In this document: positions 8,540-27,287 of the stretch, piece after piece
Numbering within the stretch: the stretch's first letter is position 1
Layout: the number at the start of each line of letters is the position of its first letter
Assembly: GCF_001636295.1 (NCBI RefSeq)
Contig: NZ_CP014209.1
Location: forward strand, 2,480,001-2,544,000
Length of the DNA: 64,000 bases
Reading direction: 5' to 3'
Source of the DNA: Isoptericola dokdonensis DS-3
GTDB taxonomy: Bacteria; Actinomycetota; Actinomycetes; Actinomycetales; Cellulomonadaceae
Made by a program: the position numbers and the translations under genes
Notes under the pieces: model-generated
The model's database searches: none
Told to the model about the DNA's origin: nothing
The model's input: only the letters and a program-made list of their open reading frames with translations

Positions 8540-8755
8540 ATGAGCAGCAACCCGCAGCAGCCCCGCAAGTTCTACCGCCCGACCCAGGGCCGCGTCCTCG
8601 GCGGCGTGTGCGCCGGGATCGCCGACTACTTCGGCTGGAGCCGCACCACGGTGCGGGTCCTCGCCGCGCTCTCCGTCCTGATCCCGGGACCCCAGGTCCT
8701 CGCCTATATCGTGTGCTGGATCCTGGTGCCGGACCAGCGCAAGGCGTTCGCCTGA
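8540..8755 (+). CDS. PspC domain protein
   Basis: A 71-residue protein. The PspC motif is clear: FYRPTQGRVLGGVCAGIADY, then FGWSRTTVRVLAAL, and a membrane segment ending CWILVPD. Short PspC proteins act in envelope stress responses. The ATG at 8540 is chosen; a GTG two codons upstream (8534) is possible. It converges on the catalase gene across a strong hairpin. Confidence 0.85.
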   Translation: MSSNPQQPRKFYRPTQGRVLGGVCAGIADYFGWSRTTVRVLAALSVLIPGPQVLAYIVCWILVPDQRKAFA

Positions 8756-8770
8756 GCCGGGAGCGACGGC

Positions 8771-8800
8771 GGGGCGGCGGGACGTCCGTCCCACCGCCCC
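8771..8800. terminator. Bidirectional hairpin terminator
   Basis: 13-nt arms (GGGGCGGCGGGAC / GTCCCACCGCCCC) with one C/A mismatch and a 4-nt loop. It sits between the convergent PspC and catalase stops. Confidence 0.6.
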
Positions 8801-8813
8801 GCGCCGCGCACCG

Positions 8814-11964: not shown

Positions 11965-13146
11965 TCACCACGGGCCGAGCACGGGCGCGGGGACAGGGAC
12001 GGGGACGACGCAGTCGGCGAGGAGCGTCCCGTCGGCGCTGGTGAGGACGGCGTGAGCCGTCCAGCCGGCGATGTCGTACGGCGTCTCGACCCCGACCTCG
12101 GGCCCGACCGGCTCGGGGAGCGACGCCTCGAGGTACACCGCGCCGTCGGACGGGAAGTCCCCGGTGACCGCGCCTCCGCCGTCGGCGGTCGAGCTCAGGT
12201 TCAGCCCGTCGGGGGACCGCAGCGAGAGCGCCGCGACGGTGTCCTCGCCCATGGCGCTGTCGCCGTCGTCGTTCAGGACGGCGTGAGCCGTCCAGCCGGC
12301 GACGACCACCGTCGTCGGCTCCTCGACCCGACGGATCCCGAGCCGTGACGACCACCGCTGGGCCGTCGTCGACTCGACGAACGCCGTCGCGGCGAGCGGT
12401 CCGTCGCTGCGGCAGGACGTCGTCTCCGCCGCGCCCGTCGAGGTGCCGCCGCCCGTCACGAGGCACGCCGCGGCGGCGAGCGCGCACACCACGAGCGCCG
12501 CGACGCTGGTGGTCCACGACGGCCAGGTCAGCCGGGGTGCGACGCGGCGCAGCCACATCACCCAGGGGTGCGGGCGCGGGCGCGTCGACCGGACGACGAC
12601 GGTGCCGAGCAGCGAGTCCGCGAACGTGCGGCCCTCCCGGTGCCAGGCGGCGCGCAGGTAGCCGATCATGAGGAACGCGTCGAGGAAGTGGGCCAGCCAG
12701 CGCAGGATCGTGCCCGCCAGCCCGATCGGGCGGCCCGACCCGGCGTCGACGACGGCGATCCCGGCGGCCCGCTTGCCCGGCGTCATCCCGGTGTACGCCT
12801 GGAGGACCGCCAGGGCGAGCAGCGTGCCGCCGGTCCACCACCCGGTACCGGCCGGCAGCGGGTCCTCGTCGCCGCCCCACAGCGGCAGCGTCGCCAGACC
12901 CACGGACGCCCCCGTGGCGAACCAGACGATCGTCGCCACCACGGCCGAGTCGAGCAGCACCGCGATCGCCCGCACCCCCCACGACGCCTTCGGCCGCTCG
13001 GGCGTGAACGGACCGTCGACCGCCGGGCGGCGGCGAGAGCCGGGCGGCGTCGACGCGGGCCGCGGGCCCGACCAGGGCGGGACGAGATACGGCCCGGCGC
13101 CCGTCGGTGCGGCGGTGGGCGGGCCCTCGGCACCGACGGTCGTCAT
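11965..13146 (-). CDS. RDD family membrane protein with repeated C-terminal extracellular part
   Basis: A 393-residue protein. A Pro-rich cytosolic N-terminus (about 1-55) precedes an RDD domain with three or so helices (ending with TPGKRAAGIAVVDA and FLDAFLMIGYLRA). A further membrane segment follows at about 215-235, then an extracellular domain. That domain contains the motif AGWTAHAVL twice, about 77 residues apart. RDD proteins are mostly uncharacterised; some act as transporters. ATG at 13146 is chosen over an upstream in-frame start. Confidence 0.75.
   Translation of the reverse strand: MTTVGAEGPPTAAPTGAGPYLVPPWSGPRPASTPPGSRRRPAVDGPFTPERPKASWGVRAIAVLLDSAVVATIVWFATGASVGLATLPLWGGDEDPLPAGTGWWTGGTLLALAVLQAYTGMTPGKRAAGIAVVDAGSGRPIGLAGTILRWLAHFLDAFLMIGYLRAAWHREGRTFADSLLGTVVVRSTRPRPHPWVMWLRRVAPRLTWPSWTTSVAALVVCALAAAACLVTGGGTSTGAAETTSCRSDGPLAATAFVESTTAQRWSSRLGIRRVEEPTTVVVAGWTAHAVLNDDGDSAMGEDTVAALSLRSPDGLNLSSTADGGGAVTGDFPSDGAVYLEASLPEPVGPEVGVETPYDIAGWTAHAVLTSADGTLLADCVVPVPVPAPVLGPW
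12044..12071. repeat. 28-bp direct repeat, copy 1 (copy 2 at 12275-12302)
   Basis: An identical 28-bp stretch occurs twice inside the RDD gene, 231 bp apart (in frame). Each copy encodes AGWTAHAVL and contains a perfect hairpin, GGACGGC-GTGA-GCCGTCC. It may mark a duplicated protein module that has kept identical DNA in its core. Confidence 0.8.
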
Positions 13147-13237
13147 GCCCGGATGCTCCCAGCCGTCCCGGCCGGTGTCCACCCTCGTCCGAGGGGTGTG
13201 GCACGGGCACCGGCCGGGGCCGCCGGGAGCAGAGCGG

Positions 13238-14803
13238 TCAGGCCTCGAGCGGCTCGGCGGACCGCAGGGCGACCGGCACCTCGGCGGAGGTGCCGGCGGG
13301 TGCCGGCGCGGCGGTCACCGGGACCGGTGCGTCGGTCGCGGTGCGGTCGACGTGCCGCAGGTCGATCTCCTCCTCCGCGCGGGGCCGCGTGAGCAGTGCG
13401 GTGACGACGAACGCCGTCACCCCGGCCGCGGCGGCGACCAGCGTGGCCCAGCCGTCGAAGTCCGCGGTGACCAGGTCGTTGTCGACGTACAGCAGGGTGT
13501 TCGGCACGCCGTAGAGCGTCGGCGTGAGCGCGAGGAAGGTGACCCGGACGACGAACCCGACGCCCGCGCCGACGAGCGCCGCCGTCGACGTGGACCGCCG
13601 CCAGAACAGACCGAGCAGGAACGGCGCGATGAGGCAGGCGAGCATGAGGTCGAACGCGAGGGTGAGCAGGATGCCGGTCTGGGAGACCCGCACGGCGAGG
13701 AAGATGCCGACGAGGACGACGGGCAGCATGGCGATGCGGGTCCAGCGCAGCAGCGGGTCGTGGTGGCCGGGCGCGACCTCACGGCGCACGCCGGCGATGT
13801 TGCGGACGGCGACGGCCGAGGTCGCGAGGATCGCGCCGGACGCCGTCGAGAAGGACGCCGCGACGATGCCGGACAGCACGAGGATGGCGAGCAGCGCGGG
13901 CGCGAAGTCGTCGAGGAGCTGGTAGATGATCGGGGCGTCGGCCGCCGACAGCCCGAGCTCGGCGACGGTGGTCAGCGCGATGAGGGACCACAGGACGCCG
14001 ACGACGGCGGTCGCGCCGGCCCCGATGAAGCACGCCTTCTGGGCGCCCTCCGGGGTCTTCGCCCCGAAGATGCGCTGCATGAAGTCGATGGCGACGAGGT
14101 CGCCGATGCCGAGGGAGACGAGGGTGGCCCAGTTGATGGCGGCGCCCTGGGCGGGGTCGGTGAGCTGGCCGAGGTCGAACGGGCCCATGCCCTCCGGGAT
14201 CGTGATGCCCCAGGTGGAGGCGACCCACACGAACAGCGCGACGGTGGCGACGCCGGTGATGACGGCCTGGATGACGGCGGTGTAGGCGTCGGAGAACAGG
14301 CCGCCGCCGATCGTGTAGGCGAGCACCAGGCACACGGCGAGGACGACGCCGACGATGTACGGCATGCCGGTGAAGTACTCGACGAGGAACCCCATCGCGA
14401 CGAGGTTCCCGGCGAGCAGGATGGTGAACGCGAAGACCATGAGCAGGGAGGCGACGAGCTCGACGGGACGGTTGTAGCGGCGCGCGAAGAAGTCGCCGAG
14501 GGTCAGCAGGCCCATACGGTTCATCGGCTTGGCGAGGAAGAGTCCCGCGAGCAGCAGGCAGATCGCCAGCCCGAGGGCGAGGGAGGCCCCGGCCCAGAAC
14601 CCGTACCCGGAGCTCATGTCCGTGTTGCCCACGGTGGCGTTGGAGTCGACGGCGGCGGTGGTGAGGGCGACGGCGACGAGCGGGATGCCGAGCTGGCGCC
14701 CGGCGACGAGGTAGTTGGCGCTGTCACCGTCGACCTTGCGCGCGACGGCGATGCCGACGACGAGGACGAGGAGGACGGTCAGCGCGACACCGGTGATGAT
14801 CAT
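13238..14803 (-). CDS. Sodium:solute symporter (SSS family), candidate urea/guanidine importer
   Basis: A 521-residue membrane protein with about 13 helices. SSS hallmarks are YLVAGRQLGIPLVAVALT at the N-terminus, AVDSNATVGNTD in the first helices and LTLGDFFARRYNRPVE. Members use Na+ to import solutes; DUR3-type members take up urea. ATG at 14803 with a CAGGAGCACG ribosome site. A 24-bp inverted repeat 34-57 bp upstream is shared with the carboxylase operon at 26.4 kb, which links this transporter to that pathway. A TetR gene lies upstream on the same strand. The substrate is inferred. Confidence 0.82.
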   Translation of the reverse strand: MIITGVALTVLLVLVVGIAVARKVDGDSANYLVAGRQLGIPLVAVALTTAAVDSNATVGNTDMSSGYGFWAGASLALGLAICLLLAGLFLAKPMNRMGLLTLGDFFARRYNRPVELVASLLMVFAFTILLAGNLVAMGFLVEYFTGMPYIVGVVLAVCLVLAYTIGGGLFSDAYTAVIQAVITGVATVALFVWVASTWGITIPEGMGPFDLGQLTDPAQGAAINWATLVSLGIGDLVAIDFMQRIFGAKTPEGAQKACFIGAGATAVVGVLWSLIALTTVAELGLSAADAPIIYQLLDDFAPALLAILVLSGIVAASFSTASGAILATSAVAVRNIAGVRREVAPGHHDPLLRWTRIAMLPVVLVGIFLAVRVSQTGILLTLAFDLMLACLIAPFLLGLFWRRSTSTAALVGAGVGFVVRVTFLALTPTLYGVPNTLLYVDNDLVTADFDGWATLVAAAAGVTAFVVTALLTRPRAEEEIDLRHVDRTATDAPVPVTAAPAPAGTSAEVPVALRSAEPLEA

Positions 14804-14836
14804 GCGTGCTCCTGGCAGTGGTCGCGGCGCCGAGCA

Positions 14837-14860
14837 ACTTTCGATCACTCGACAGATAGT
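14837..14860 (-). promoter_or_regulatory. TetR-type operator, copy 1
   Basis: 24-bp imperfect inverted repeat: half-site ACTTTCnnTC, four spacer bases, then GAnnGAtAGT. The forward sequence matches the site at 26396-26419 at 21 of 24 positions. It lies in the gap between the TetR gene and the symporter start, where an operator would be expected. Confidence 0.7.
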
Positions 14861-14962
14861 GACCACGATTCAGCCGCACCCATGTTTCGGGCGTACTACC
14901 TTCCCGGGAACATTCACGTGACATGTGCCGCGCGCCACACCCGCGACAGGCAGGTGGGCTGG

Positions 14963-15625
14963 TCAGCCGGCGAGCTCGGCCGCGAGCGCCGCGGCCTGGG
15001 TGCGCACGGTGCGCAGCCGGGCCTCGCGGACGCCGAGGAGGCGCTGGGCGGCGTCGGCCAGCAGCGGGGCCACGTCGGCGGCGTCGAGGTCCGGCTCGGT
15101 GCGGCGGCGCAGGATGACGGACTCCACCAGCCCGAACACCAGGCTGGCCTGCGGATGGGCGGCGTCCTCGTCCGTGCCGAGGACGTCGGAGACCAGGCTG
15201 CGGTAGACGCCGTAGAGCTGCTGCCGGTCGGCGTGGAACGGCGCGAACCGGTCGTCGCCCAGCTCGGGGAGCAGGTACAGCGAGCCGGTGTTGTCCTCTC
15301 CGGACAGCAGCAGGCCGACGTCGTAGGCGCACAGGGCCCACAGGCGGACGTCGGCGGGCTCGTCGCGGCCCGCGAGCGTGGTGGCGTACTCGACCGACGG
15401 CTCGACGGTGGCGCGCAGCAGGGCGAGGAGGATCGCGTGCTTGCCCGTGAAGTAGTGGTACATGCTCGCCTGCGAGATCCCGGCGCCCTGCGCGATGGCG
15501 TAGGTGGAGGTGCTGCCGAACCCCGTCTCGCAGAACAGGCGTGCCGCGGCGACGAGGATGTCCTGCTCGGTCGTGAGGCCCGAGGTGGAGGGGCCCTGGG
15601 CACGGGGACGACCGAGGCGAGGCAT
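14963..15625 (-). CDS. TetR family transcriptional regulator
   Basis: A 220-residue protein with an N-terminal HTH: ILVAAARLFCETGFGSTSTYAIA, then GAGISQASMYHYFTGKHAIL (about residues 25-70). The helical C-terminal domain is typical of TetR effector domains. ATG at 15625. It is followed 159 bp later by the sodium symporter, with an inverted-repeat operator between them, and is separated from the upstream aldarate operon by a hairpin. It is the best candidate to bind the operator pair at 14.8 and 26.4 kb. Its ligand is unknown; a guanidine-pathway compound is a guess. Confidence 0.85.
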   Translation of the reverse strand: MPRLGRPRAQGPSTSGLTTEQDILVAAARLFCETGFGSTSTYAIAQGAGISQASMYHYFTGKHAILLALLRATVEPSVEYATTLAGRDEPADVRLWALCAYDVGLLLSGEDNTGSLYLLPELGDDRFAPFHADRQQLYGVYRSLVSDVLGTDEDAAHPQASLVFGLVESVILRRRTEPDLDAADVAPLLADAAQRLLGVREARLRTVRTQAAALAAELAG

Positions 15626-15668
15626 GCCGCGACGCTAGCAGGGCGGACCGGGTCGGACGGCGCCCGGA

Positions 15669-15700
15669 CGGCTGCCGGACGAGCACCCGGCCGGCAGCCG
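15669..15700 (-). terminator. Terminator of the gudD operon
   Basis: Perfect 10-bp stem CGGCTGCCGG / CCGGCAGCCG with a 12-nt loop, located 7 bp past the gudD stop codon and upstream of the TetR gene on the same strand. Confidence 0.6.
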
Positions 15701-15706
15701 CCGGGG

Positions 15707-17032
15707 TCAGCGCACCAGGCAGGGCCGCTTCGGGTCGAACTCCCAGTCCGCCACGAGGTACTGCATGGCGACGGCGTCGTCGCGCGACCCGAGCCCGTGC
15801 TCCCGGTACAGCTCGTGGGCGGCGGCGAGACGGTCGGGGTCGACCTGCACCCCGAGCCCCGGTGCGGTCGGCACGCGGATCTGCCCGTCGCGGATCAGCA
15901 GCGGGTCCGTCGTCAGGCCCTGCCCGTCCTGCCAGATCCAGTGCGTGTCCAGCGCGGTGATCTCGCCCGGCGCCGCGGCTCCGACGTGCGTGAACATCGC
16001 GAGCGAGATGTCGAAGTGGTTGTTGGAGTGCGACCCCCAGGTCAGACCGAACTCGTGGCACAGGTGCGCCACGCGGACCGAGCCCGCCATCGTCCAGAAG
16101 TGCGGGTCCGCCAGCGGGATGTCGACGGCGTGCTCCCGCACGGCGTGCGCCATCTCCCGCCAGTCCGTCGCGATCATGTTCGTGGCGGTCGGCAGGCCCG
16201 TGGCGCGCCGGAACTCCGCCATGACCTCGCGGCCGGAGAACCGGCCCTCGGCGCCGCACGGGTCCTCGGCGTACGCGACGACGCCGCGCATCCGCCGGCC
16301 CAGCCGGACCGCCTCGTCGAGCAGCCAGCCGCCGTTCGGGTCGAGCGTGATCCGCGCGTCGGGGAACCGCTCCTTGAGCGCGACGACGGCGTCGACCTCC
16401 AGGTCGCCCGCCTGCACCCCGCCCTTGAGCTTGAAGTCGGTGAACCCGTAGCGCTCCTGGGCGGCCTCGGCGAGGCGCACGACGGCGTCGGGCGTCAGCG
16501 CCGCCTCGCGTCGCAGCCGCGACCAGGCGTCCGGCCCGTCGGGCTCGCGCAGGTACGGCAGGTCGGTGGCGTCGGGGTCGCCGACGTAGAACAGGTAGCC
16601 GAGCATGGGCACGGCGTCGCGCTGCTGGCCCTCGCCGAGCAGCTCCGCCACCGGCACCCCGAGAGCCTGCCCGTGCAGGTCGAGCAGAGCGGACTCCAGC
16701 CCGGTGACGGCGTGCACGGTGGTGCGCAGGTCGAACGTCTGGTTGCCGCGCCCGGCGGCGTCGCGCGCGGCGAACGTCGTCGCGACCTGGCGCAGCAGCG
16801 ACCGGAAGCGGGCGACGGCCTGCCCGACGACCAGCGCGCCGGCGTCCTCGATCGTGGTGCGGATCTTCTCCCCGCCCGGCACCTCGCCGAGCCCGGTGCG
16901 CCCCTCGGAGTCCTCGACGAGCACGACGTTGCGCGTGAAGAACGGCCCGTGGGCGCCGGACAGGTTGAGCAGCATCGAGTCGTGCCCGGCGACGGGCACC
17001 ACCTGGACCCGCGCGACGGTGGGCGCGCTCAT
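15707..17032 (-). CDS. gudD: Glucarate dehydratase
   Basis: A 441-residue enolase-superfamily enzyme that dehydrates D-glucarate to 5-keto-4-deoxy-D-glucarate. It carries the family residues: the KLK motif in FTDFKLKGG, metal ligands in TLDPNGGW and [19 protein letters not shown], and the catalytic His in [10 protein letters not shown]. The length fits GudD (about 440-450). The ATG overlaps the stop of the upstream dehydrogenase gene by 4 bp. It is the last gene of a kdgD-dehydrogenase-gudD operon that ends in a hairpin. Confidence 0.93.
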
Positions 17033-18633
17033 GCCGCGCCCCCGCCGAGCTCGACGCGGCCGTCGACCAGGCGGTCGAGGTGCCACGGGTTGTCCGTGCG
17101 CAGGGGTGCGGGCAGCAGCTCCTCGGGCAGGTTCTGGTAGGCGACGGGACGCAGGAAGCGCTCGATCGCCAACGTCCCGACGGAGGTGGAGCGCCCGTCG
17201 GACGTCGCGGGGAACGGTCCGCCGTGCACCATCGCGTGCCCCACCTCGACGCCGGTCGGCCAGCCGTTGACGAGGATCCGCCCGACCTTGCGCTCCAGCA
17301 CGGGCAGCAGCCGGCGCGCGGAGGCGGTGTCGGCGGCGGTCAGGTGGAGCGTCGCGGTGAGCTGGCCCTCCAGGCGGCCGACGGCGGCGAGCAGCTCGTC
17401 GTCGTCGGCGTACCGCACGACCAGCGAGGCGGCGCCGAAGATCTCCTGCTCCAGCACCGGGTTGGCGAGGAACGTCGCGACGTCCGCGATGAAGACCTGC
17501 GGAGCCGGGGCGTTCTCCCCGGCTCCCGGCGTCCCCGCGCCGACGCGCTCCACGCCGTCCTGCCCGGCCAGCTCGTCGACGCCCTGGTGCCAGGCCGCGG
17601 CGATGCCGGCGGTGAGCATGGTCTGCCCGGTGGTGGCCGCCGCGGCACGGCCGACGGCGTCGACGAACGCGTCGCCGTCGTCGCCGCGCGGCACCAGCAC
17701 CACGCCGGGGGCGGTGCAGAGCTGGCCCGACGACCCGGTGACCGACGTCAGGTACGCCTGGGCGAGGCCGTCGACGTCGTCCTTCACCGCGCCCGGCAGC
17801 ACGACGACGGGGTTGACCGAGCTCATCTCGGCGTAGACGGGGATCGGCACCGGCCGGGACGCGGCCGCGGCCACGAGCGCCAGGCCGCCGCTGCGCGAGC
17901 CGGTGAACCCGACGGCCTGGATCACCGGGTCGGTGACCAGGGCGCGGCCCACCGCGGTACCGGGCCCGTGCACGAGGGAGAAGACGCCCGGGTGCAGGCC
18001 CGACTCCTCGACGGCGTCCGCGACGGCGCGGCCGACGAGCTCGCCGGTGCCGAGGTGTGCGGAGTGCGCCTTGACGACGACGGGGCAGCCCGCCGCGAGC
18101 GCCGAGGCGGTGTCGCCCCCGGCGGTGGAGAACGCGAGCGGGAAGTTGCTGGCGCCGAACACGGCGACGGGCCCGACGGGGATCTTGCGCTGCCGGATGT
18201 CGACGCGGGGCAGCGGGGTGCGGTCGGGCTGCGCGGGGTCGATGCGCACGCCGTGGTGGCCGCCCTGGCGCACCACGGCGGCGAACAGGCGGAGCTGGCC
18301 GGTGGTGCGGGCCAGCTCGCCGCGCAGCCGCGCCTCGGGCAGGCCGGTCTCCCGCATCGCGCGGTCGACGACGGCGTCCCCGACGGCCTCGACGTTGTCG
18401 GCGACGCGCTCCAGGAACTGTGCGTGCGGCTCCGGCGCGAGGGTGGAGAACGAGTCGAAGGCCTCCAGCGCGGCGGCCGTGGCGACCGTGACCTGGTCGG
18501 GGTCGAGCAGGGAGTAGGCGGGGGCGAGCTCCTCGCCGGTGGCGGGGTCGCGGCCGACGACGGTGCCGGCGGTCCCCTCCAGCGGGGCGCCCGCGACGAT
18601 CGAGTGGCCGGTGAGCACGGCGGTGGGGGTCAT
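17029..18633 (-). CDS. 2,5-dioxopentanoate (alpha-ketoglutarate semialdehyde) dehydrogenase
   Basis: A 534-residue aldehyde dehydrogenase. The catalytic Glu is in YAEMSSVNP and Cys in [11 protein letters not shown], with the Asn-type motif [11 protein letters not shown]. The [15 protein letters not shown] signatures and the length are those of KGSADH enzymes, which oxidise 2,5-dioxopentanoate to 2-oxoglutarate, the final step of aldarate breakdown. It overlaps gudD by 4 bp and follows kdgD by 23 bp. ATG at 18633; the frame is open further upstream but inside kdgD. Confidence 0.9.
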
Positions 18634-18656
18634 GACTTCCTTCCTTCGCGGTGTCG

Positions 18657-19601
18657 TCAGCGGGTGAGGGCGGACTCGGTGGGGCGGACGCCCGCGGCGT
18701 CGACGAGCGCCCGCAGGTCGTCGACGTCGGCGGCCGTGAGGTCCTGCAGGGGCGGGCGGACGCCGCCCAGGTCGCGGCCGACGGCGCGCAGGCCGCCCTT
18801 GACGATCGACACCCCGTAGCCCTTCGCACGGTCCCGGATGTCGAGGTACGGCAGCACGAACCTGTTGAGCTTCTCGGTGACGGCGTCGCGGTCCTGCGCA
18901 CGGACGTCGCGGTAGAACGCGAGGGCGAACTCGGGCACGAAGTTGTACATCGCCGAGGAGTAGGTGCTCATGCCGAGCTGGAGCAGCGGCAGGGCGTAGG
19001 TCTCCGCGGTGGGCAGGCCGCCGAGGTAGAAGAGCCGGTCGCCGTTGCGGGCGTAGACCCGGGTGAGGTGCTCGATGTCGCCGACGGCGTCCTTGAAGCC
19101 GATGAAGTTGGGGTGCCGGTCGGCGAGCCGTGCGACGGTCTCGGCGGAGTAGATCGCGTTGGCCCGGTTGTAGACGATGACGCCGGTGCCGGTGGCGGCG
19201 CAGACCGCGGAGGCGTGCTCGAGCAGGCCCTGCTGGTCGCACTCGGTGAGGTAGGGCGGCAGGAGCAGCACGCCCTCGGCCCCGGCGGCCTCGGCGGCGC
19301 GGGCGTTCTCGACGGCCTGCGCGGTGTTGCCGCCGGCGCTGCCGAGCACGGGGGTGCGGCCCTGGGCGGACTCCACGGCCAGCCGGAACACACGGGCGGC
19401 CTCAGTCGGCGTGAGGCTGAAGCCCTCGCCCGTCCCGCCCGCGGCGAACAGCCCGCCGACGTCGAAGCTGGTCTGCCAGTCGATGTGCTCGCGGTACCGC
19501 GCCTCGTCCACGTCGCCGTCGGCGGTGAACGGGGTGACGGGGAACGACAGCAGGCCGTCCTTGAGCGTTCGGGCAAGGTCCGCGGGTGAGTACGTGGCCA
19601 C
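18657..19601 (-). CDS. kdgD: 5-dehydro-4-deoxyglucarate dehydratase
   Basis: A 314-residue DHDPS/NAL-family TIM barrel that converts 5-keto-4-deoxyglucarate to 2,5-dioxopentanoate, water and CO2. Signatures are [28 protein letters not shown], the Tyr in [12 protein letters not shown], and the Schiff-base Lys in [14 protein letters not shown] start behind AGGAGGGGCC. It is the first gene of the aldarate operon and has a LysR-type site 68-97 bp upstream. Confidence 0.93.
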
Positions 19602-19668
19602 GTGGCCCCTCCTGTGACAGACGTCGACGTCGGCGAATGGTTCTGTCGGTCAACCTACGAAGCCATCA

Positions 19669-19698
19669 CGATGCCTGTCCAAGCCCGAGTCGGCATCG
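19669..19698 (-). promoter_or_regulatory. LysR-type binding site upstream of kdgD
   Basis: 30-bp site with perfect arms cgATGCC...GGCATcg and 16 bp between ATGCC and GGCAT. The inner bases are conserved in the site at 20646-20675 (shared core TGTCyAAGCCmGA). It is placed for activation of the kdgD operon by the adjacent LysR protein. Confidence 0.7.
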
Positions 19699-19733
19699 AT
19701 TCATGCCGGGCGAGCATCGCTGCCGGGTGCGCT

Positions 19734-20615
19734 CTAGTCCTGGTCGGAGCGCAGGTGGTGCAGCAGCTGGTGCAGCGCAGGGTTCTTCGACGTCCGGTCC
19801 CAGATGGCGTGCAGCTCCACCACGCCGTGCGGCACGTCCGCCAGCTCGAGGAACCGCACCCCGGGAAGGCCGAGCAGCCGCGCCGACTCGGGCACGAACG
19901 CCACCCCACGGCCCGCCCCGACCAGCGAGCACATCGTGAGGATCTGGCTCACGACGTGCACGACGTCCGCGTGCGACAGGTCCACGTACCGCACGACCAT
20001 GTCGTAGAAGTAGCGCGCCTTCGTCGGGTGGTGGCCGATGATCGGCAGGTCGCGCAGGTCCGCGGCGCGCACCGCGTACGACGTGGCGAGCGGGTGCGAC
20101 TCCGGCACGACGAGCACGAGGTCCTCGGACAGCAGCAGCCGGGAGTCGAACAGCTCGTCGTCGAAGGGTGGCCGCCCGAGCGCGAGGTCGAGCTCGCCGC
20201 GCCGGATCGCCTCGATCTGCTCGATCGTGACGAGCTCCTGGAGGTCGAGGTCGACGGCGGGCATGACCTCGGAGATGGTCTGCATCAGCGTGCCGAGCAG
20301 GCTGAACCCGGTGGCGGCGGTGAAGCCGAGCCGCAGGACGCCCGCACGGCCGGCCGCGATCCGGCGGGCGAGGGCCGGTGCGGCGTCCGCGGCGGTGAGC
20401 AGCCGACGCGCCTCGGCGAGGAACACCGTGCCGGCGCTGGTGAGCTCGACGTGCCGGTTGTCGCGGTCGAGGAGCGCGACGCCGACGGCACGCTCCAGCT
20501 TCTGCACCTGCCGGCTCAGCGGCGGCTGCGTCATGCTCAGGCGTTCCGCCGCGCGCCCGAAGTGCAGCTCCTCCGCGACCGCCACGAAGCAGCGGACCTG
20601 GTCGAGGGTGTACAT
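19734..20615 (-). CDS. LysR family transcriptional regulator of the aldarate genes
   Basis: A 293-residue LTTR. The N-terminal winged HTH is clear: LDQVRCFVAVAEELHFGRAA, then SMTQPPLSRQVQKLERAVG. The effector domain follows. It sits between the kdgD operon (same strand) and the divergent tctCBA operon. A related 30-bp palindromic site precedes each of these, so it probably senses an aldarate or its product and controls both. ATG at 20615. Confidence 0.88.
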   Translation of the reverse strand: MYTLDQVRCFVAVAEELHFGRAAERLSMTQPPLSRQVQKLERAVGVALLDRDNRHVELTSAGTVFLAEARRLLTAADAAPALARRIAAGRAGVLRLGFTAATGFSLLGTLMQTISEVMPAVDLDLQELVTIEQIEAIRRGELDLALGRPPFDDELFDSRLLLSEDLVLVVPESHPLATSYAVRAADLRDLPIIGHHPTKARYFYDMVVRYVDLSHADVVHVVSQILTMCSLVGAGRGVAFVPESARLLGLPGVRFLELADVPHGVVELHAIWDRTSKNPALHQLLHHLRSDQD

Positions 20616-20645
20616 GCGCCTCCTTGATGCCTTCCTTGGATCAAG

Positions 20646-20675
20646 TCATGCCGTTTCTGGCTTAGACAGGCATCG
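20646..20675. promoter_or_regulatory. LysR-type site in the lysR-tctC divergent region
   Basis: Read on the minus strand it begins CGATGCCTGTCTAAGCC and ends GGCATGA. It shares most bases with the site at 19669-19698, including the ATGCC and GGCAT arms at the same 16-bp spacing. It is 31-60 bp before the lysR start and 79-108 bp before tctC, the usual place for LTTR autoregulation plus divergent activation. Confidence 0.7.
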
Positions 20676-20753
20676 TACGACCGCCCTACTGTCGAGAAGC
20701 CCCAGCACTGCGGTGCCCGCACCGCACCGGACGTCTCAACGAGGAGAACCCTG

Positions 20754-21752
20754 ATGACACCCGCACGCCGGACCCTCACCGGGGCCGCCGCCGCCGCCAC
20801 CGTCCTCGCCCTCGCCGCCTGCGGCGGCAACGTCGGGGGCGGCTCCGACGCCGGGTCGTCGGCCGCCTATCCGTCCGGCCCCGTCACCCTCACCGTCGGT
20901 CAGGACGCCGGCGGCTCCACCGACCTCATCGCACGCGCCGTCGCCGACGGCATGGCGGACGACCTCGGTGTCGCGGTCCCCGTCGTCAACCGCGCCGGGG
21001 CCAACGGCGCCGTCGCCACCCAGGAGGTCGCGGCCAAGCCCGCGAACGGGCAGGACCTCGTCCTGCTCAACGCCTCCCTCATCACCATCACGCCTCTGGC
21101 CGTCTCCGAGGACGAGGCCGTCAGCCTCGACGAGCTCGACGTCATCAAGGGCCTGTCGCAGGACGACTACGTGCTGGTCGCCAGCAAGGAGTCCGGGTTC
21201 CAGACCCTCGACGACCTCGAGGCGGCCTCCGGCGACCTCACCTACGGCACCACCGGCGTCGGCACCGGCTCCCAGCTCGCCCAGGCGCTGCTGTTCGCGC
21301 AGGCGGAGATCGAGGGCCAGGACATCCCGTTCGACTCCGGCTCGCCCGCCCTCACCGCCGTCGTCGGCGACCAGGTCCAGGTCGCGACCATCCAGCTCGG
21401 CGAGGCCAAGCCGCAGATCGACGCCGGCAACGTCGTGCCGCTCCTCGCGTTCTCCCAGGAGCGCAACCAGTTCCTGCCCGACGTCCCGACCGCCGCGGAG
21501 GAGGGCTACGACGTCCCCGTCGCGCAGTACCGCGCCCTCGCCGCACCGAAGGGTCTGCCCGACGACGTCAAGGCCCGGCTCGTGGAGTCCGTGGACGCGG
21601 CGATCGCCACCGACACCTACCAGCAGTTCAACGAGAACCAGCTGCTGACCCCCCACGAGATCTCCGGCGACGAGGTGGTCACCGAATGGACCGAGCTGGC
21701 CGACAGGTACGAGGAGCTGACCGAGGAGTACGGCATCTCCCTCACGGAGTGA
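20754..21752 (+). CDS. tctC: Tripartite tricarboxylate transporter, substrate-binding lipoprotein
   Basis: A 332-residue periplasmic-type binding protein of the Bug/TctC family. A lipoprotein signal with lipobox LAAC ends at about residue 23. The mature part shows YPSGPVTLTVGQDAGGSTDLIAR, PVVNRAGANGAVATQEV and GTTGVGTGSQLA. It would deliver the substrate to the TctAB membrane complex. ATG behind a GAGGAGAAC ribosome site. The pathway genes around it suggest glucarate or galactarate as substrate. Confidence 0.9.
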   Translation: MTPARRTLTGAAAAATVLALAACGGNVGGGSDAGSSAAYPSGPVTLTVGQDAGGSTDLIARAVADGMADDLGVAVPVVNRAGANGAVATQEVAAKPANGQDLVLLNASLITITPLAVSEDEAVSLDELDVIKGLSQDDYVLVASKESGFQTLDDLEAASGDLTYGTTGVGTGSQLAQALLFAQAEIEGQDIPFDSGSPALTAVVGDQVQVATIQLGEAKPQIDAGNVVPLLAFSQERNQFLPDVPTAAEEGYDVPVAQYRALAAPKGLPDDVKARLVESVDAAIATDTYQQFNENQLLTPHEISGDEVVTEWTELADRYEELTEEYGISLTE

Positions 21753-21778
21753 CCAGCCGACGACGCCCGAGGAGCAGC

Positions 21779-22378
21779 ATGATGACGACCCAGCACCCCG
21801 AGACCCCGACGCCGCGCGAGCCCGCGCCGACGCCCCCGGCCGACGACGCTGCGTCGCCCGCGGACGCACCGACGCTGCGCGAGGTGGTCACCGGGGCCAC
21901 CGCCGAGAGCGAGTCCGAGGCCGACGAGCAGCTCCCGCCGCCCGCCGGTGGCGTCGCGAACCTCGCCGCCGCCCTGGTCACCCTCGGGCTCGGGGTGCTG
22001 GGCGTCGTCGTCTCCGTCGCGCTGGGGATCGGCACCCCCGCCCAGCCGGGATCAGGCATGTGGCCGCTCGCGGTCAGCGTCGCGCTCGTCGTGCTGTCCC
22101 TCGCGCAGCTCGTCGTCGGCCGTGCGGGCGGCGACGGGGAGAAGTTCACACGGCACTCCTGGTACCCGGTCGTCGGGCTGGTCACGCTGCTCGGCATGGT
22201 GGCCCTGCTGCCCGTCGTCGGGTTCGAGATCCCGTCCCTGCTGCTCTGCCTCGTGTGGACGAAGTTCCTCGGCGGGGAGACCTGGCGGTCCGCCGTCCTC
22301 ACGTCCGTCGTCACGACCGGGGCGCTCTACGCGATCTTCGTCGGGGCGCTCGGCACCAACGTCCCCCACCTGTTCTGA
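21779..22378 (+). CDS. tctB: Tripartite tricarboxylate transporter, small membrane subunit
   Basis: A 199-residue protein with four hydrophobic segments after an unusually long acidic, Pro/Thr-rich cytosolic N-terminus (about 60 residues). This is the TctB family topology. The start is one of two adjacent ATGs (21779 or 21782) behind GGAGCAGC. It lies between tctC and tctA with gaps of 26 and 21 bp. Confidence 0.85.
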   Translation: MMTTQHPETPTPREPAPTPPADDAASPADAPTLREVVTGATAESESEADEQLPPPAGGVANLAAALVTLGLGVLGVVVSVALGIGTPAQPGSGMWPLAVSVALVVLSLAQLVVGRAGGDGEKFTRHSWYPVVGLVTLLGMVALLPVVGFEIPSLLLCLVWTKFLGGETWRSAVLTSVVTTGALYAIFVGALGTNVPHLF

Positions 22379-22399
22379 CCCGCGCGAAGGAGACGCCAC

Positions 22400-23923
22400 G
22401 TGGACAACCTGCAGAACGTCGTCGCCGGGTTCGAGGTCGTGCTCGAGCCGACCAACCTCCTGTACTGCCTCCTCGGGGTCGTCATCGGGATGCTGGTCGG
22501 CGTGCTGCCCGGCCTCGGACCGGCGGCCACGATCGCCATCCTGCTGCCCCTCACCTACGGCATCGAGCCGGTCACCGCCATCATCATGCTCGCCGGGATC
22601 TTCTACGGCGCCCAGTACGGCGGCACCATCACGTCCGTGCTGCTCCGGCTGCCCGGTGAGGCCAGCTCGGTCGTCACCGTGCTCGACGGCCACGCCCTGG
22701 CACGTCAGGGCAAGGCCGGGACCGCGCTCGGCATCGCCGCGATCGGCTCGTTCGTCGGCGGCACCATCGCCATCGTCGGCCTGACCTTCCTCGCGCCGCT
22801 CGTCGCCGGCTTCGCCCTCGACTTCGGCCCGCCCGAGTACGCGGCGCTCGCCCTGCTCGGCATCCTGCTGGTGGCGACCATCGCCTCCGGCGCCCGTGTC
22901 AAGGCGCTCATCGCCGCCGTCGTCGGGCTGCTCCTGGCCACCGTCGGGCGCGACGCCTTCACCGGCGTCGAGCGGTTCACGTTCGGCAACCTCGACCTGG
23001 CCGACGGCATCGACTTCGTCCCCGTCGCGATGGGCCTGTTCGGGCTCGGCGAGATCCTCTACAACCTGGAGGAGCGCCACCGCGCCGTGCACGCGCCCCG
23101 CAAGGTGACGAACGTGTGGCCGTCACGTCAGGACCTGCGCCAGTCGTCCGGCGCCGTGGGCCGCGGCTCCGTCCTCGGGTTCTTCCTCGGCGTCCTGCCC
23201 GGAGGTGGCGCCACGATCGCGTCGATGGCCGCCTACGCGACGGAGAAGCGCCGCGCCAAGGACCCGTCCCGGTTCGGCAAGGGCGCGATCGAGGGCGTCG
23301 CCGGGCCGGAGACCGCGAACAACGCCGCCGCGACCAGCTCGTTCATCCCGCTGCTGACGCTCGGCATCCCCGCCAACGCCACCATGGCCCTCATGTTCGG
23401 CGCGCTGCTCATCCAGGGCGTCACCCCCGGCCCGCAGCTCGTCGACCAGGACCCGGAGCTCTTCTGGGGCGTCGTCAACTCGATGTACATCGGGAACGTG
23501 CTGCTCCTGATCATGTCGATCCCGCTGGTGGGGATCTTCGTGCGGATCCTGCGGGTGCGGCCCGCGATCCTCGCGCCCGTCACGGCCCTCATCACGCTGC
23601 TCGGCGCGTACACGATCAACAACTCCGTGTTCGACGTCCTGCTGGTCGTCCTGTTCGGCGCCGTCGGCTACCTCATGAAGAAGTTCGGCTTCGAGCCCGG
23701 ACCCCTCGTCCTGGCCTTCGTCCTGGGCTCCCTGCTCGAGGAGAGCGTGCGCCGCTCGCTGCTGCTGTTCGGCGGCGACCCCACCGGGTTCCTGACCCGC
23801 CCGATCTCGGCCGTCCTGCTGGCGCTGTTCGTCGTCGTCGCCGTCTGGCCGATCATCCGTTCCACCCGCCGGCGCCGCAGCGCCGCGCAGGACACCATCG
23901 ACCGCGAAGGAGCATCCGTATGA
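22400..23923 (+). CDS. tctA: Tripartite tricarboxylate transporter, large membrane subunit
   Basis: A 507-residue protein with about 11-12 helices. The TctA signatures are GMLVGVLPGLGPAATIAIL near residue 30 and its pseudo-repeat GFFLGVLPGGGATIASM near residue 260, plus GAQYGGTITSVLLRLPGE. GTG start behind AAGGAGACG. The stop overlaps the ATG of a universal stress protein gene by 4 bp. Confidence 0.93.
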   Translation: MDNLQNVVAGFEVVLEPTNLLYCLLGVVIGMLVGVLPGLGPAATIAILLPLTYGIEPVTAIIMLAGIFYGAQYGGTITSVLLRLPGEASSVVTVLDGHALARQGKAGTALGIAAIGSFVGGTIAIVGLTFLAPLVAGFALDFGPPEYAALALLGILLVATIASGARVKALIAAVVGLLLATVGRDAFTGVERFTFGNLDLADGIDFVPVAMGLFGLGEILYNLEERHRAVHAPRKVTNVWPSRQDLRQSSGAVGRGSVLGFFLGVLPGGGATIASMAAYATEKRRAKDPSRFGKGAIEGVAGPETANNAAATSSFIPLLTLGIPANATMALMFGALLIQGVTPGPQLVDQDPELFWGVVNSMYIGNVLLLIMSIPLVGIFVRILRVRPAILAPVTALITLLGAYTINNSVFDVLLVVLFGAVGYLMKKFGFEPGPLVLAFVLGSLLEESVRRSLLLFGGDPTGFLTRPISAVLLALFVVVAVWPIIRSTRRRRSAAQDTIDREGASV

Positions 23924-24315
23924 GCATCGTCGTGGGGTACGTCCCGACAGCCGTGGGCGAGGCGGCGACCACGGCGGCCATCGCCGAGGCCCGCCTGCGC
24001 GGCGAGGAGCTCCTGGTCCTCAACTCGGCGCGGGAGGGCTCGCTCGTCGAGTCGACCGTCGCCAGCGACGACGACCTCTCCCGCGTCCTGGCCGACGCCG
24101 CGGCCGCGGGCGTCGTCGCGCGGGTCGTGCGCGGCACGCACCGCGACGACTTCAGCGAGGAGATCCTCGAGCTGGCCGCCGCGCACGACGCCAGCCTGAT
24201 CGTCATCGGGCTGCGTCGGCGCAGCCCGGTCGGCAAGTTCATCATGGGGTCTGTCGCGCAGCGGATCCTGCTCCAGGCCGAGCACCCCGTGCTGGCGGTC
24301 AAGCCACGCGCCTGA
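23920..24315 (+). CDS. Universal stress protein (UspA family) in the transporter operon
   Basis: A 131-residue single Usp domain. The ATP-binding motif G-2x-G-9x-G is seen as IGLRRRSPVGKFIMGSVAQ. The ATGA overlap with tctA couples its translation to the transporter. In Halomonas the Usp TeaD modulates the TeaABC TRAP transporter, so a similar role on TctABC is plausible but inferred. It ends convergent with the GntR gene, 21 bp away. Confidence 0.87.
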   Translation: MSIVVGYVPTAVGEAATTAAIAEARLRGEELLVLNSAREGSLVESTVASDDDLSRVLADAAAAGVVARVVRGTHRDDFSEEILELAAAHDASLIVIGLRRRSPVGKFIMGSVAQRILLQAEHPVLAVKPRA

Positions 24316-24336
24316 CCGTTCCGCCGGGCGGGCGCG

Positions 24337-25020
24337 TCAGCGCGCCTGCCCGGTCTCCGCGAGGAGACGCCGCCGCGAGGCGGCCAGGTGGACCCGCATC
24401 GCCGCCGCGGCGGCGAGCGGGTCCTGGCCCGTCAGGGCGTCCAGCACCGCGCGGTGCTCCTGCACGACCGTGACGAAGCGGTCGCCCTCGGGAGGATCGA
24501 GCCGGCCGCGCGGCATGGCGATCATCTGCGGACCGAGCCGGTCGACGGCGTCCAGCAGGTACCGGTTGTGCGAGGCCTCCGCGACGAGCCGGTGGAACCC
24601 GAAGTCGTGCTGCATGGCGGTGGAGGGGTGGTCGTACGCCGTGCGCAGGTCGTCGAGGCGGGCCGTCAGCGCGGCGAGCTGCGCCGGGGTGCGACGCTCC
24701 GCCGCGAGTGCTGCCGTCTGCGTCTCGAGGCCCAGGCGGTAGTCGAGGAGCGCGAGGCGGTCCTCGACGGTGCGGGCGAGAGGGGCGGCACCGGCGTCGT
24801 CGGCCGGCGGCGTCAGCGCGTACGAGCCGCTGCCCCGCCGGGTGTGGACGAGACCCTCGTTGTTGAGGCGGGCGACGGCCTCGCGCACGACCGTGCGGCT
24901 CACGCCGTGCTCGGCGGCGAGGCGCGGCTCGCTGGGCAGCTTCTCGCCCGGAGCGATCACCCCGTCGACGATCTGCGCGCGGAGCGTGGCGACCAGGGCG
25001 CTGCTCAGGGTCGGTGGCAT
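24337..25020 (-). CDS. GntR family regulator (FadR/FCD subfamily)
   Basis: A 227-residue protein. The N-terminal wHTH reads LRAQIVDGVIAPGEKLPSEP, then LAAEHGVSRTVVREAVARL. The helical FCD domain has metal-site His residues in DFGFHRLVAEASHNRYL and EHRAVLDAL. It is the second gene after the galactarate-type dehydratase (70-bp gap), and a perfect inverted repeat in that gene's promoter is its likely operator. It probably represses the dehydratase until an aldarate is present. Confidence 0.88.
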   Translation of the reverse strand: MPPTLSSALVATLRAQIVDGVIAPGEKLPSEPRLAAEHGVSRTVVREAVARLNNEGLVHTRRGSGSYALTPPADDAGAAPLARTVEDRLALLDYRLGLETQTAALAAERRTPAQLAALTARLDDLRTAYDHPSTAMQHDFGFHRLVAEASHNRYLLDAVDRLGPQMIAMPRGRLDPPEGDRFVTVVQEHRAVLDALTGQDPLAAAAAMRVHLAASRRRLLAETGQAR

Positions 25021-25090
25021 GGCCCCATGCTTCCATCCCGTCCGCGGCCGGCGGCGGGGCCCCGGAGGGCTCGCCCGCCGCCGACCGGGT

Positions 25091-26224
25091 TCATCGCGTG
25101 CCGACGAGCACGCTGTCCGTGGTCCAGGCCCGCGCCTGGTCGGTGAGGGTGACGCCGAGCCCAGGGCGGTCCGGGACGAGCATCCGGCCGTCCTTCGTCT
25201 CCAGGCGCTCCTCGAAGAGCGGGTCGAGCCAGTCGAAGTGCTCGACCCACGGCTCGCGGGGGTAGGTGGCCGCGAGGTGCAGGTGAATCTCCATGGCGAA
25301 GTGCGGTGCCAGGTCGAGGCCCGCCTGGTCGGCGAGGGTCAGGAGCCGCAGGAACTGGGTGATCCCGCCGACGCGGGGGGCGTCGGGCTGGATGATGTCG
25401 CACGCCCGGGTCGCGATGAGGCGCTCGTGCTCGGCCACGGACGCGAGCATCTCGCCCGTCGCGATCGGCGTGTCCAGGGCCGCGGCGAGCGCGGCGTGAC
25501 CCTCGGCGTCGTAGGCGTCGAGCGGCTCCTCGATCCACACCAGGTCGTACGGCTCCAGGCGGCGGCCCATGCGCAGGGCGGTGGTGCGGTCCCACTGCTG
25601 GTTCGCGTCGACCATGAGGGGGACGTCGGGCCCGATGTGCTCTCGTACGGCCTCGACGCGCGCGAGATCGGTGCGGTTGTCGGGCAGGCCGACCTTGATC
25701 TTGATGCCACCGATGCCCTCCTCGATCGAGCGGGTGGCGCGGTCCTTGACCTCGCCGATGCTCGCGTTGAGGAACCCGCCGGACGTGTTGTAGGTGCGCA
25801 CGGAGTCGCGGTGGGCACCGAGCAGCTTGGCCAGCGGCAGGTCCGCCCGCTTGGCCTTGAGGTCGTACAGCGCGATGTCGATCGCCGCGAGCGCCTGGGT
25901 GGCGACGCCGGACCGGCCGACGGAGGCTCCCGCCCAGAGCAGCCTGGTGTAGAGCTTCGCGATGTCGTTCGGGTCCTCGCCGATCGCGGCGGAGGCGACC
26001 TCCTGGGCGTGCGCGTACTGGGCGGGCCCGCCCGCCCGCTTGGAGTACGAGAAGCCGAGGCCGGTGTGACCCTGCTCGGTGGTGATCTCGGCGACGAGGA
26101 ACACCACCTCGGTCATCGGCTTCTGGCGGCCGGTGAAGACCTTCGCGTCGGAGATCGCCGTGGCCAGCGGGAGGGTGAGGGTGGAGAGCTCCACGCTCCG
26201 GACGGCATCGGGTCGGTACGGCAT
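25091..26224 (-). CDS. L-talarate/galactarate dehydratase-type enolase superfamily enzyme
   Basis: A 377-residue mandelate-racemase-type enzyme. It has the KxK base in GGIKIKVGLP, metal ligands in LMVDANQQWDR, VWIEEPLDAYDAEGH and TGEMLAS, and the His in LAPHFAMEIHLHLA, plus the EHFDWL end. This pattern is that of TalrD/GalrD enzymes, which dehydrate galactarate (and L-talarate) to 5-keto-4-deoxyglucarate, the kdgD substrate. The ATG at 26224 is chosen; the frame runs upstream through the promoter. Substrate preference is inferred. Confidence 0.82.
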   Translation of the reverse strand: MPYRPDAVRSVELSTLTLPLATAISDAKVFTGRQKPMTEVVFLVAEITTEQGHTGLGFSYSKRAGGPAQYAHAQEVASAAIGEDPNDIAKLYTRLLWAGASVGRSGVATQALAAIDIALYDLKAKRADLPLAKLLGAHRDSVRTYNTSGGFLNASIGEVKDRATRSIEEGIGGIKIKVGLPDNRTDLARVEAVREHIGPDVPLMVDANQQWDRTTALRMGRRLEPYDLVWIEEPLDAYDAEGHAALAAALDTPIATGEMLASVAEHERLIATRACDIIQPDAPRVGGITQFLRLLTLADQAGLDLAPHFAMEIHLHLAATYPREPWVEHFDWLDPLFEERLETKDGRMLVPDRPGLGVTLTDQARAWTTDSVLVGTR

Positions 26225-26286
26225 CGTGCTCCTTCGCGGTCTGCCGGGCCTGGGCGGCCCTCGCGGGACGGCCCCCGCTCGTGGTG

Positions 26287-26315
26287 AGCATACAAGTTTC
26301 TCACTTGTCTGACCA
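26287..26315 (-). promoter_or_regulatory. Promoter with GntR-type operator in the spacer
   Basis: On the minus strand TGGTCA (26315-26310) and TATGCT (26292-26287) stand 17 bp apart and drive the dehydratase gene. The perfect inverted repeat ACAAGT-N5-ACTTGT (26292-26308) fills the spacer, so a bound repressor would block the polymerase. The GntR gene of this operon is the likely binder. Confidence 0.65.
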
Positions 26316-26395
26316 GAGTGACCGCCCCCTCGCCCTGACAAGTCGTTACGCACCGTTAACACGGCCGGCACGCCGGGAACATCGTCGACCTCTTG

Positions 26396-26419
26396 ACTTT
26401 CAATCACTCGAAAGAAAGT
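26396..26419 (+). promoter_or_regulatory. TetR-type operator, copy 2, before the carboxylase operon
   Basis: 24-bp inverted repeat ACTTTCnnTC-N4-GAnnGAAAGT, nearly the same as 14837-14860. A TTGACT (-35-like, 26393-26398) overlaps its left arm, but a good -10 is not visible. It ends 13 bp before the first ATG and abuts the AGGAGG ribosome site. I saw no guanidine riboswitch in this leader. Confidence 0.72.
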
Positions 26420-26432
26420 AGGAGGCGAGACC

Positions 26433-27287
26433 ATGACGCAGCAGGCCGAAGCCCCGGTCGGCACCGGCACCACCGCCGGCGCCCGGGCGCACGCCAGGGC
26501 GCAGGAGGGGACCGTCGTCGCGGACGCCCCCGCCGTCCCCGCCACCACCTGGCCCCGGCCGCCCGCCCACGTCGACCCCGGCCGCCTCGTCTGGGCCGAG
26601 CGCGTCGCGGGCGGCGGCTACGCGCACCGCGTGCTGGCCCGCGGCACCACCGTGCGGCTCACCGACGTCGCCGGCGACGCCTGCGCGCACGTCCTGCTCT
26701 TCCACGCCGACGCCCCGTGGGAGCGGCTCAACGTCGCCGACACCGTCAAGGTGCAGTGGCAGGTGTACTCGGGCGCCGGCCGGCTCCTGCTCAGCGACCA
26801 GGCCCGCGTGCTCGCGTCCGTCGTCGAGGACACCTCCGGCCACCACGACACCCTGTACGGGACCTCGACCCAGGCCCGCAACGAGCAGCGGTACGGCGAC
26901 GGCTCCCCCGAGGGCCCCTCGCCCGCCGGTCGCGAGCTGTTCGTGCTGGGTGCCGCGAAGCACGGGCTCGGGCGGCGCGACGTCCCGCCGTCGGTGTCGT
27001 TCTTCCAGGGCGTGCGCGTCGACGACGCGGGCCGCCCCCGCTTCGAGGGCTCCGCCGGACCCGGCGCGTCGGTCACGCTGCGCACCGAGATGCCGGTCGT
27101 GCTGCTGATCGCCAACGCGGCGCACCCCCTCGACCCGCGCGAGACGTACACCTCGACGCCGCTGGAGATCGTCGCCTGGCGCGACCGCCCCACCGCGCCC
27201 GAGGACGACCTGTGGACGGCGACCCCCGAGGGCCGCCGCGCGTTCGAGAACACCCACGACCACCTGAAGGGACGGGGTCTGGCATGA
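26433..27287 (+). CDS. DUF1989 protein UAAP1-type (carboxyguanidine deiminase subunit candidate)
   Basis: A 284-residue protein of the DUF1989/urea-amidolyase-associated family. Key segments are RLTDVAGDACAHVLLFHAD, LNVADTVKVQWQVYSGAG and the His/Asp cluster SGHHDTLYGTST. It has an Ala/Pro-rich N-terminal extension of about 45 residues. Work on Pseudomonas and relatives showed that the paired proteins (CgdA, CgdB) deiminate carboxyguanidine to allophanate. First gene of a four-gene operon with 4-8 bp overlaps. ATG behind AGGAGG. Confidence 0.85.
   Translation: MTQQAEAPVGTGTTAGARAHARAQEGTVVADAPAVPATTWPRPPAHVDPGRLVWAERVAGGGYAHRVLARGTTVRLTDVAGDACAHVLLFHADAPWERLNVADTVKVQWQVYSGAGRLLLSDQARVLASVVEDTSGHHDTLYGTSTQARNEQRYGDGSPEGPSPAGRELFVLGAAKHGLGRRDVPPSVSFFQGVRVDDAGRPRFEGSAGPGASVTLRTEMPVVLLIANAAHPLDPRETYTSTPLEIVAWRDRPTAPEDDLWTATPEGRRAFENTHDHLKGRGLA

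Follow-up and report, generated by a model that had tools for sequence, protein, structure and literature searches.

The control by AmtR of 'urea carboxylase' operons that hold an APC permease is already in print (PMC4222082). That paper, in its available part, reports that amtR co-occurs in ten actinobacterial genomes with an operon of an amino acid permease, a urea carboxylase, two unknown frames and an amidase, that AmtR of Mycobacterium smegmatis represses genes of such an operon and binds 5' of msmeg_2184, and that GlnR acts above AmtR in this species (PMC4222082). Guanidine degradation operons under riboswitch control have also been described, with guanidine transporters of the ABC and APC types named there (PMC12186494, PMC11410670). 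Here, we analysed computationally a stretch of 64,000 nucleotides from Isoptericola dokdonensis DS-3 (NZ_CP014209.1, positions 2,480,001 to 2,544,000 of the forward strand; hereafter the window), in which an SSS-family sodium:solute symporter and a TetR-family regulator lie apart from a carboxylase operon. Comparison of relatives supports well a regulon in which the symporter would serve as a guanidine importer.

The symporter (13238-14803, minus strand, 521 residues) matched PF00474 with E 1e-25 and 91 bits against a cut-off of 22.8, which places it in the SSS family; its score to TIGR00813 was 93.6 bits, under the cut-off of 184. No second match to it (a paralogue) was found in its own genome at E 1e-5. 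The regulator (14963-15625, minus strand, 220 residues; PF00440) lies beside it. The operon on the plus strand comprises UAAP1 (26433-27287; TIGR03425, 299 bits, cut-off 206) and UAAP2 (27284-27910; TIGR03424, 307 bits, cut-off 285), both with PF09347 and probably subunits of carboxyguanidine deiminase, a biotin-dependent carboxylase filed as urea carboxylase (27903-31514; TIGR02712, 1730 bits), and an allophanate hydrolase (31511-33172, within the open frame 30629-33172; TIGR02713, 583 bits, cut-off 511).

The locus resembles the M. smegmatis-type operon in its AmtR-type TetR protein, urea carboxylase, two unknown frames and amidase or allophanate hydrolase, in the possible role of GlnR as a second regulator, and in that amtR is sometimes distant from the operon (PMC4222082). 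The regulator-operon link is thus known in kind, because that paper reports AmtR with urea carboxylase operons. However, the transporter of the M. smegmatis-type operon is an amino acid permease, whereas the window has an SSS symporter with its own operator, and that operon has been read as one for urea, whereas residues and linkage in the window point to guanidine (PMC4222082). The riboswitch-controlled guanidine operons share the carboxylase pathway with the window but use an ABC or APC transporter, whereas the window has the SSS symporter and no riboswitch (PMC12186494, PMC11410670); homologues of this symporter in other genomes are themselves under guanidine-I riboswitches. The AmtR regulon of Corynebacterium glutamicum has a homologous regulator and the same spacing and centre of the box, and its AmtR is not autoregulated, just as no box stands 5' of the TetR gene in the window; but it is global, with at least 35 genes, while the window genome has two sites (PMC2723105).

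Two operators and their conservation

Operator A (14837-14860, ACTTTCGATCACTCGACAGATAGT) belongs to the promoter region of the symporter, whose ATG (14803, minus strand) follows 33 bp downstream, and operator B (26396-26419, ACTTTCAATCACTCGAAAGAAAGT) lies immediately 5' of UAAP1, 13 bp upstream of its ATG (26433, plus strand). Both are AmtR-like boxes. An earlier note on this DNA had proposed that the two sites match at 21 of 24 positions, with half-sites ACTTTCnnTC and GAnnGAAAGT and one arm base different; direct reading confirmed this (GATAGT instead of GAAAGT), with the sites about 11.5 kb apart. The coordinates likewise bear out its statement that one site precedes the symporter beside the TetR gene and the other the carboxylase operon. 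The range of that note ends near site B and thus does not include the operon (26433-33172).

We searched for the pattern ACTTTCNNTCNNNNGANNGAAAGT in the window with up to three mismatches and found two matches, sites A and B, against a mean of 0.02 in shuffled windows; at least two matches occurred in none of 100 shuffles. Across the genome (3,826,972 bases), the same pattern with up to two mismatches gave sites A and B only, and the reversed control pattern gave none. A looser pattern, ACTWTCNNTCNNNNGANNGAWAGT, with up to three mismatches hit the same two places (control pattern, one place). The motif is therefore not frequent, and the window shuffles and genome-wide searches together rule out a chance origin of the two sites. 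The consensus of the relatives, TTTCTRTCNNNNGAYAGAAA, was matched at two mismatches by A and B and at three by one further place (control, one); this search is less circular than the scoring of the relatives, though the window sites had already been seen. Each of the two sites scored 14 of 16 to TTTCTRTCNNNNGAYAGAAA.

The half-site pattern of the earlier note was also searched with one mismatch in 200 genomes of the family (own genome included). It occurred in no genome but the own one and G185, and it was rejected as a general motif; it is rare because relatives mostly carry CTGTC forms of the box. The match in G185 (L003, G185:C1:2907709-2907732), with one mismatch, is the only other near match in this set and may be due to chance.

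We then compared relatives. With the alignment of symporters as query, named genomes gave 119 relatives, of which the best 80 were examined. The carboxylase, UAAP1 or UAAP2 lay within the fetched flank in 64 of the 80 symporter loci, and the TetR gene was also present in 59 of these 64. The TetR protein was also compared with 58 genomes (own included), and the loci of its five best matches in genomes other than its own were read. In G008 and G016, SSS, TetR, UAAP1, UAAP2 and carboxylase genes stand side by side in that order, and SSS and UAAP1 each have 5' of them a palindrome that shares the centre of the window sites. G207 and G212 have the TetR gene at a carboxylase operon with no SSS matched, and G213, a 7.9-kb contig, has the TetR gene and, of the carboxylase, just 67 residues that match its end.

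The 16 loci without the operon in the flank are of several kinds. Eight adjoin a guanidinase-like gene; L039, L043 and L058 have a carboxylase elsewhere in the same genome (the copy of L043 in two pieces at contig ends); L051, L071, L083 and L091 are contigs of just 3.1-8.6 kb; and the last is L048 (Actinoplanes rectilineatus, symporter 7785-9308), nearest to the window symporter in the tree. The cluster is also split in Nocardioides mangrovi (L039/L133/L134, about 34 kb) and Cellulomonas marina (L058/L130, about 10 kb), distances which assume that the paired stretches lie on one contig. Both split clusters carry boxes 5' of both halves, and site A is identical in 24 of 24 bases to the site 5' of the N. 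mangrovi symporter.

The consensus TTTCTRTCNNNNGAYAGAAA was scored around each start, over 250 bp on the 5' side and 75 bp on the 3' side, with a threshold of at least 12 of 16. Such a box was found 5' of SSS in 71 of 80 loci and 5' of UAAP1 in 55 of 62, while random 325-bp stretches of the same loci, with the true sites left in, reached the threshold in 242 of 8000 cases. In the seven loci where UAAP1 lacks a box (L102, L103, L110 and L113-L116), SSS directly precedes UAAP1 on the same strand, and the nine SSS genes without one are those of the eight guanidinase-linked loci and L048. The single regulon for symporter and operon that the earlier note predicted is thus supported by the like operator 5' of both parts in most relatives, by the confinement of ACTTTCNNTCNNNNGANNGAAAGT to two places, and by the adjacency of the two parts in relatives (G008, G016 and the 64 linked loci), which that note had suggested as a check.

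UAAP1 was found in 14 of 99 genomes of the order (own included). Among the 13 other UAAP1 loci, the TetR gene is near in 12 and an APC permease in 7. No APC permease was detected in the window (E 1e-5) or in the 80 symporter loci (E 1e-20), and the symporter fills the place of this permease.

Guanidine or urea as the substrate

The carboxylase was examined by a published residue signature: Asp at position 1584 of the Kluyveromyces lactis enzyme is required for guanidine carboxylase, and Asp at 1330 separates it from urea carboxylase (PMC11410670, as far as its text was available). In the alignment, D709 of the window carboxylase lies opposite K. lactis N1330, and D946 lies opposite position 1584, the latter placed by counting along a cut alignment row. 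Among the 62 relatives with a carboxylase match, Asp was present in 61 of 61 readable sequences at the first position and in 60 of 60 at the second; the other UAAP1 loci of the order had the signature Asp in 12 of 12 readable cases.

The symporters themselves give a second line of evidence. In eight of the nine loci without a box, a guanidinase-like gene adjoins the symporter. Its product belongs to the arginase family (PF00491 in the three tested, L105, L106 and L107), and the remaining neighbours are 61 to 91% identical to the L107 protein. In the PDB, the L107 neighbour matched 9fek best (E 2e-211), followed by 7esr/7oi1 (E 2e-169), which carry the name agmatinase 2, putative or probable. 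We take 9fek and 7esr/7oi1 to be the guanidinases of Nitrospira and Synechocystis. Guanidinases carry T, H and W residues (PMC11410670); with positions set from the L107 PDB alignment and an assumed offset of two, all three were found in seven of the eight neighbours; the L101 sequence, truncated where its contig ends, has H and W.

A guanidine-I riboswitch was found with Rfam in five of the eight guanidinase-linked loci, directly 5' of SSS in L106, L107 and L112 and 5' of the guanidinase-SSS pair in L105 and L111; guanidine-III elements lie 5' of the guanidinase in L106 and L112. These calls come from the Rfam models and not from the ligand-defining bases, and other ligands are known for related aptamers of the ykkC type (PMC6031431). 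The riboswitch scans left out L039, L043, L048 and L058.

The two Mycolicibacterium loci, L106 (9671-9973) and L112 (9643-9946), have a divergent arrangement in one intergenic region, with guanidine-III on the guanidinase side and guanidine-I on the symporter side.

We built a tree from 81 symporters, in which those linked to a guanidinase did not form one clade, and the labels need three changes. One group (96/91) joins three guanidinase-linked symporters of Pseudonocardia and five of Nocardia that have AmtR-like boxes. Because guanidinase-linked and box-linked symporters are intermixed in this way, it is likely that the substrate is shared across both wirings while control has changed.

The earlier note had made the symporter a candidate importer of guanidine or urea. 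The comparison of relatives supports this candidacy, and guanidine is favoured over urea because of the carboxylase aspartates, the guanidinase-like neighbours and the guanidine-I riboswitches beside homologous symporters. It could be argued that the regulon is the same, that the symporter imports urea and that the operon is a urea amidolyase operon, since NCBIfam files the carboxylase as urea carboxylase and the UreA-type urea/H+ transporters of fungi and plants have been modelled on an SSS protein (PMC4077062). However, the carboxylase has Asp and not Asn at K. lactis position 1330, the operon holds UAAP1 and UAAP2 of the carboxyguanidine deiminase family, the homologous symporters stand beside guanidine-I riboswitches and guanidinase-like genes, and neither urea nor amino acids released AmtR of M. 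smegmatis in the available part of that report (PMC4222082). We regard the urea explanation as very unlikely.

Another explanation keeps the regulon but supposes that the main substrate of the symporter is methylguanidine or another guanidino compound, which would be converted to guanidine inside the cell. Guanidine riboswitches sense intracellular guanidine and not what crosses the membrane, and a published guanidine carboxylase operon includes a pathway for methylguanidine (PMC12508155). However, no conversion gene was seen in the window cluster or in the two-gene guanidinase-symporter units, whose neighbours were not exhaustively named, and this explanation seems to us rather unlikely.

The solved structures nearest to the symporter by sequence are those of the high-affinity choline transporter CHT1 and other SSS proteins, yet the matches reach only E 2e-15 with the single sequence and 8e-23 with a profile. 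Residues D53, D62, D235, D240 and D385 are invariant in all 81 aligned symporters; D385 is common to CHT1, whereas D53, D235 and D240 lie opposite Gly, Gly and Ala of CHT1, as read by eye. Among the 120 listed of 956 database homologues, those with a name are called, for example, sodium:solute symporter, and a few choline transporter or proline symporter. No SSS guanidine importer was found in the literature searched, from which subscription papers are mostly absent, and a term count in a 2021 review of prokaryotic SSS proteins gave zero words starting with guanid or urea (PMC7918813).

The regulator, nitrogen control and the proposed regulon

Against the PDB, the TetR protein gave six top matches with E values from 1e-38 to 5e-35, and the next was 2e-12. 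Three of the six are named AmtR (5e57, 5mqq and 6gy3) and three TetR family only; 5dxz, 5dy0 and 5dy1 are presumably C. glutamicum AmtR. Judged from sequence, the window protein is an AmtR homologue, and the operators resemble the AmtR box.

The GlnR box has the form GTNAC-N6-GNAAC (PMC10704036). We counted GlnR-type pairs with 7 or 8 of 8 bases in the 90 bp 5' of the operators: for UAAP1, 47 of 55 loci have one against 1.7 expected, and for SSS, 22 of 69 against 2.4 expected, where the control was single-base shuffling and kinship among the loci was ignored. In the window, a possible pair, GTTAC-N6-TTAAC (26345-26360, plus strand), stands upstream of operator B 5' of UAAP1 with 7 of 8.

We consider it probable that the locus is one regulon with two promoters and an AmtR-type repressor, in which the symporter imports guanidinium and the operon degrades guanidine. 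The repressor (14963-15625) would bind both AmtR-like boxes, in the symporter promoter and 5' of UAAP1, and repress both units as long as nitrogen is ample and no inducer is present. Release of C. glutamicum AmtR takes place via the PII protein GlnK. Additional control by nitrogen may come from a GlnR-type activator that acts on the promoter of UAAP1. Once the units are on, the symporter would bring in guanidinium with sodium, the carboxylase would convert guanidine to carboxyguanidine, UAAP1 and UAAP2 would deiminate this to allophanate, and the allophanate hydrolase would release the remainder, with three ammonia in total. Binding, repression, sodium coupling, guanidinium as the substrate and the direction of transport are what we infer here from the computed features.

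Several observations weigh against this regulon. Of the six DNA-contact residues of C. glutamicum AmtR (Thr42, Gln53, Ser55, Tyr57, Tyr58 and His59; PMC2723105), four are kept in the window protein, and Tyr58 and His59 are replaced by His and Tyr in the alignment. The consensus TTTCTRTCNNNNGAYAGAAA was composed after the sites of the relatives had been seen, so that their scoring was not blind. Among the 13 other UAAP1 loci of the order, an SSS gene is near in only one (L159, which is not independent of the 80-locus set, as L159 and L088 are probably from the same genome). A box of at least 12 stands directly 5' of UAAP1 in only three of these 13, and the box pattern there is weaker than in the symporter loci; L159, L162, L167 and L168 have a box of at least 13 elsewhere in the fetched stretch. 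The 14.9-kb contig of L048 has no box, operon or guanidinase. No guanidine riboswitch was found in L101, L109 and L118 at E 0.1, in seven AmtR-type loci (of 72), or at Rfam gathering scores in positions 10000-36000 of the window. The GlnR-type pair 5' of the window symporter has 6 of 8, no better than chance. The four window half-sites are CTGT, CGAT, CAAT and CTTT, with the published core CTAT in none of them, and the region 5' of the window TetR gene has no box (best score 8 of 16 to TTTCTRTCNNNNGAYAGAAA).

The last two points would also suit a regulon whose sites are bound by a protein other than the adjacent AmtR homologue, as would the five of 64 operon loci without a TetR gene seen in the flank (L040, L054, L056, L075 and L077). 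However, the TetR gene accompanies the other 59, and M. smegmatis AmtR binds 5' of the permease gene of a like operon (PMC4222082). The C. glutamicum box, tttCTATN6AtAGat/aA, has CTAT where the window half-sites depart from it, but sites A and B agree with it in spacing and centre (PMC2723105). Thus, a different binding protein is in our view unlikely.

The sugar-acid cluster and the meaning of the locus

A sugar-acid catabolic cluster of glucarate/galactarate type (15707-26224, about 11 kb) separates the halves of the regulon and is itself outside it. It comprises a glucarate dehydratase-like gene (15707-17032), an aldehyde dehydrogenase (17029-18633), KdgD (18657-19601), LysR (19734-20615), TctC (20754-21752), TctB (21686-22378), an open frame that is TctA by place only (22400-23923), Usp, a GntR-like gene (24337-25020) and an L-talarate/galactarate dehydratase (25091-26224), with Usp listed between the 22400-23923 frame and the GntR-like gene. 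The window thus has the common gene order of the relatives with this cluster set between the halves.

Since the symporter and TetR genes lie downstream of the glucarate-type genes on the same strand, they might be thought to belong to the sugar-acid cluster, the shared site being a leftover or due to chance. However, the genome has no such sites other than A and B, Tct-type genes are already present within the cluster, and no dehydratase or KdgD homologue above 60 bits was found beside any of the 80 symporters. This explanation is extremely improbable. No match to the window dehydratases, KdgD, LysR or Tct genes was found between the halves in N. mangrovi and C. marina, and because of this the splits in the window and in these two genomes look independent.

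In the genus, of which 18 genomes were compared (own included), the own genome alone has the symporter (at E 1e-60) and the carboxylase (at E 1e-200). G116, the nearest genus relative read, matches the window up to 12928 and, after about 65 bases, again from 33206. Positions 12929-33205 (about 20.3 kb, with the guanidine genes and the sugar-acid cluster) are absent from it, and the 65 bases lie in their place between RDD and ThuA genes. From this junction, the 20.3 kb behaves as one block, which would have been gained in the window genome or lost in G116. No direct repeat of at least 11 bases is common to 12850-13300 and 33050-33350; there is one 11-base inverted match. Two more stretches of the window lack any match longer than 250 bases to the part of G116 that was fetched: 34533-41703, where one frame matches domains of rhamnan synthesis RgpF and of glycerophosphotransferase, and 43115-48480.

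Guanidine is a little-known nitrogen source, and few guanidine importer proteins are known. We regard as possible, and put forward tentatively, that the whole SSS clade consists of sodium-driven guanidinium importers, wired either to riboswitch and guanidinase or to AmtR and carboxylase, and that this AmtR type is released by guanidine or a pathway intermediate. In the available part of the M. smegmatis report, guanidine is not among the ligands reported as tested on AmtR (PMC4222082), which suggests guanidine as a candidate for the effector that was not found there. By the same comparison, operons that have been read as urea operons under AmtR control may instead be for guanidine. The symporter clade, conserved and linked to both guanidine pathways and in five loci to guanidine riboswitches, would offer proteins open to assay.

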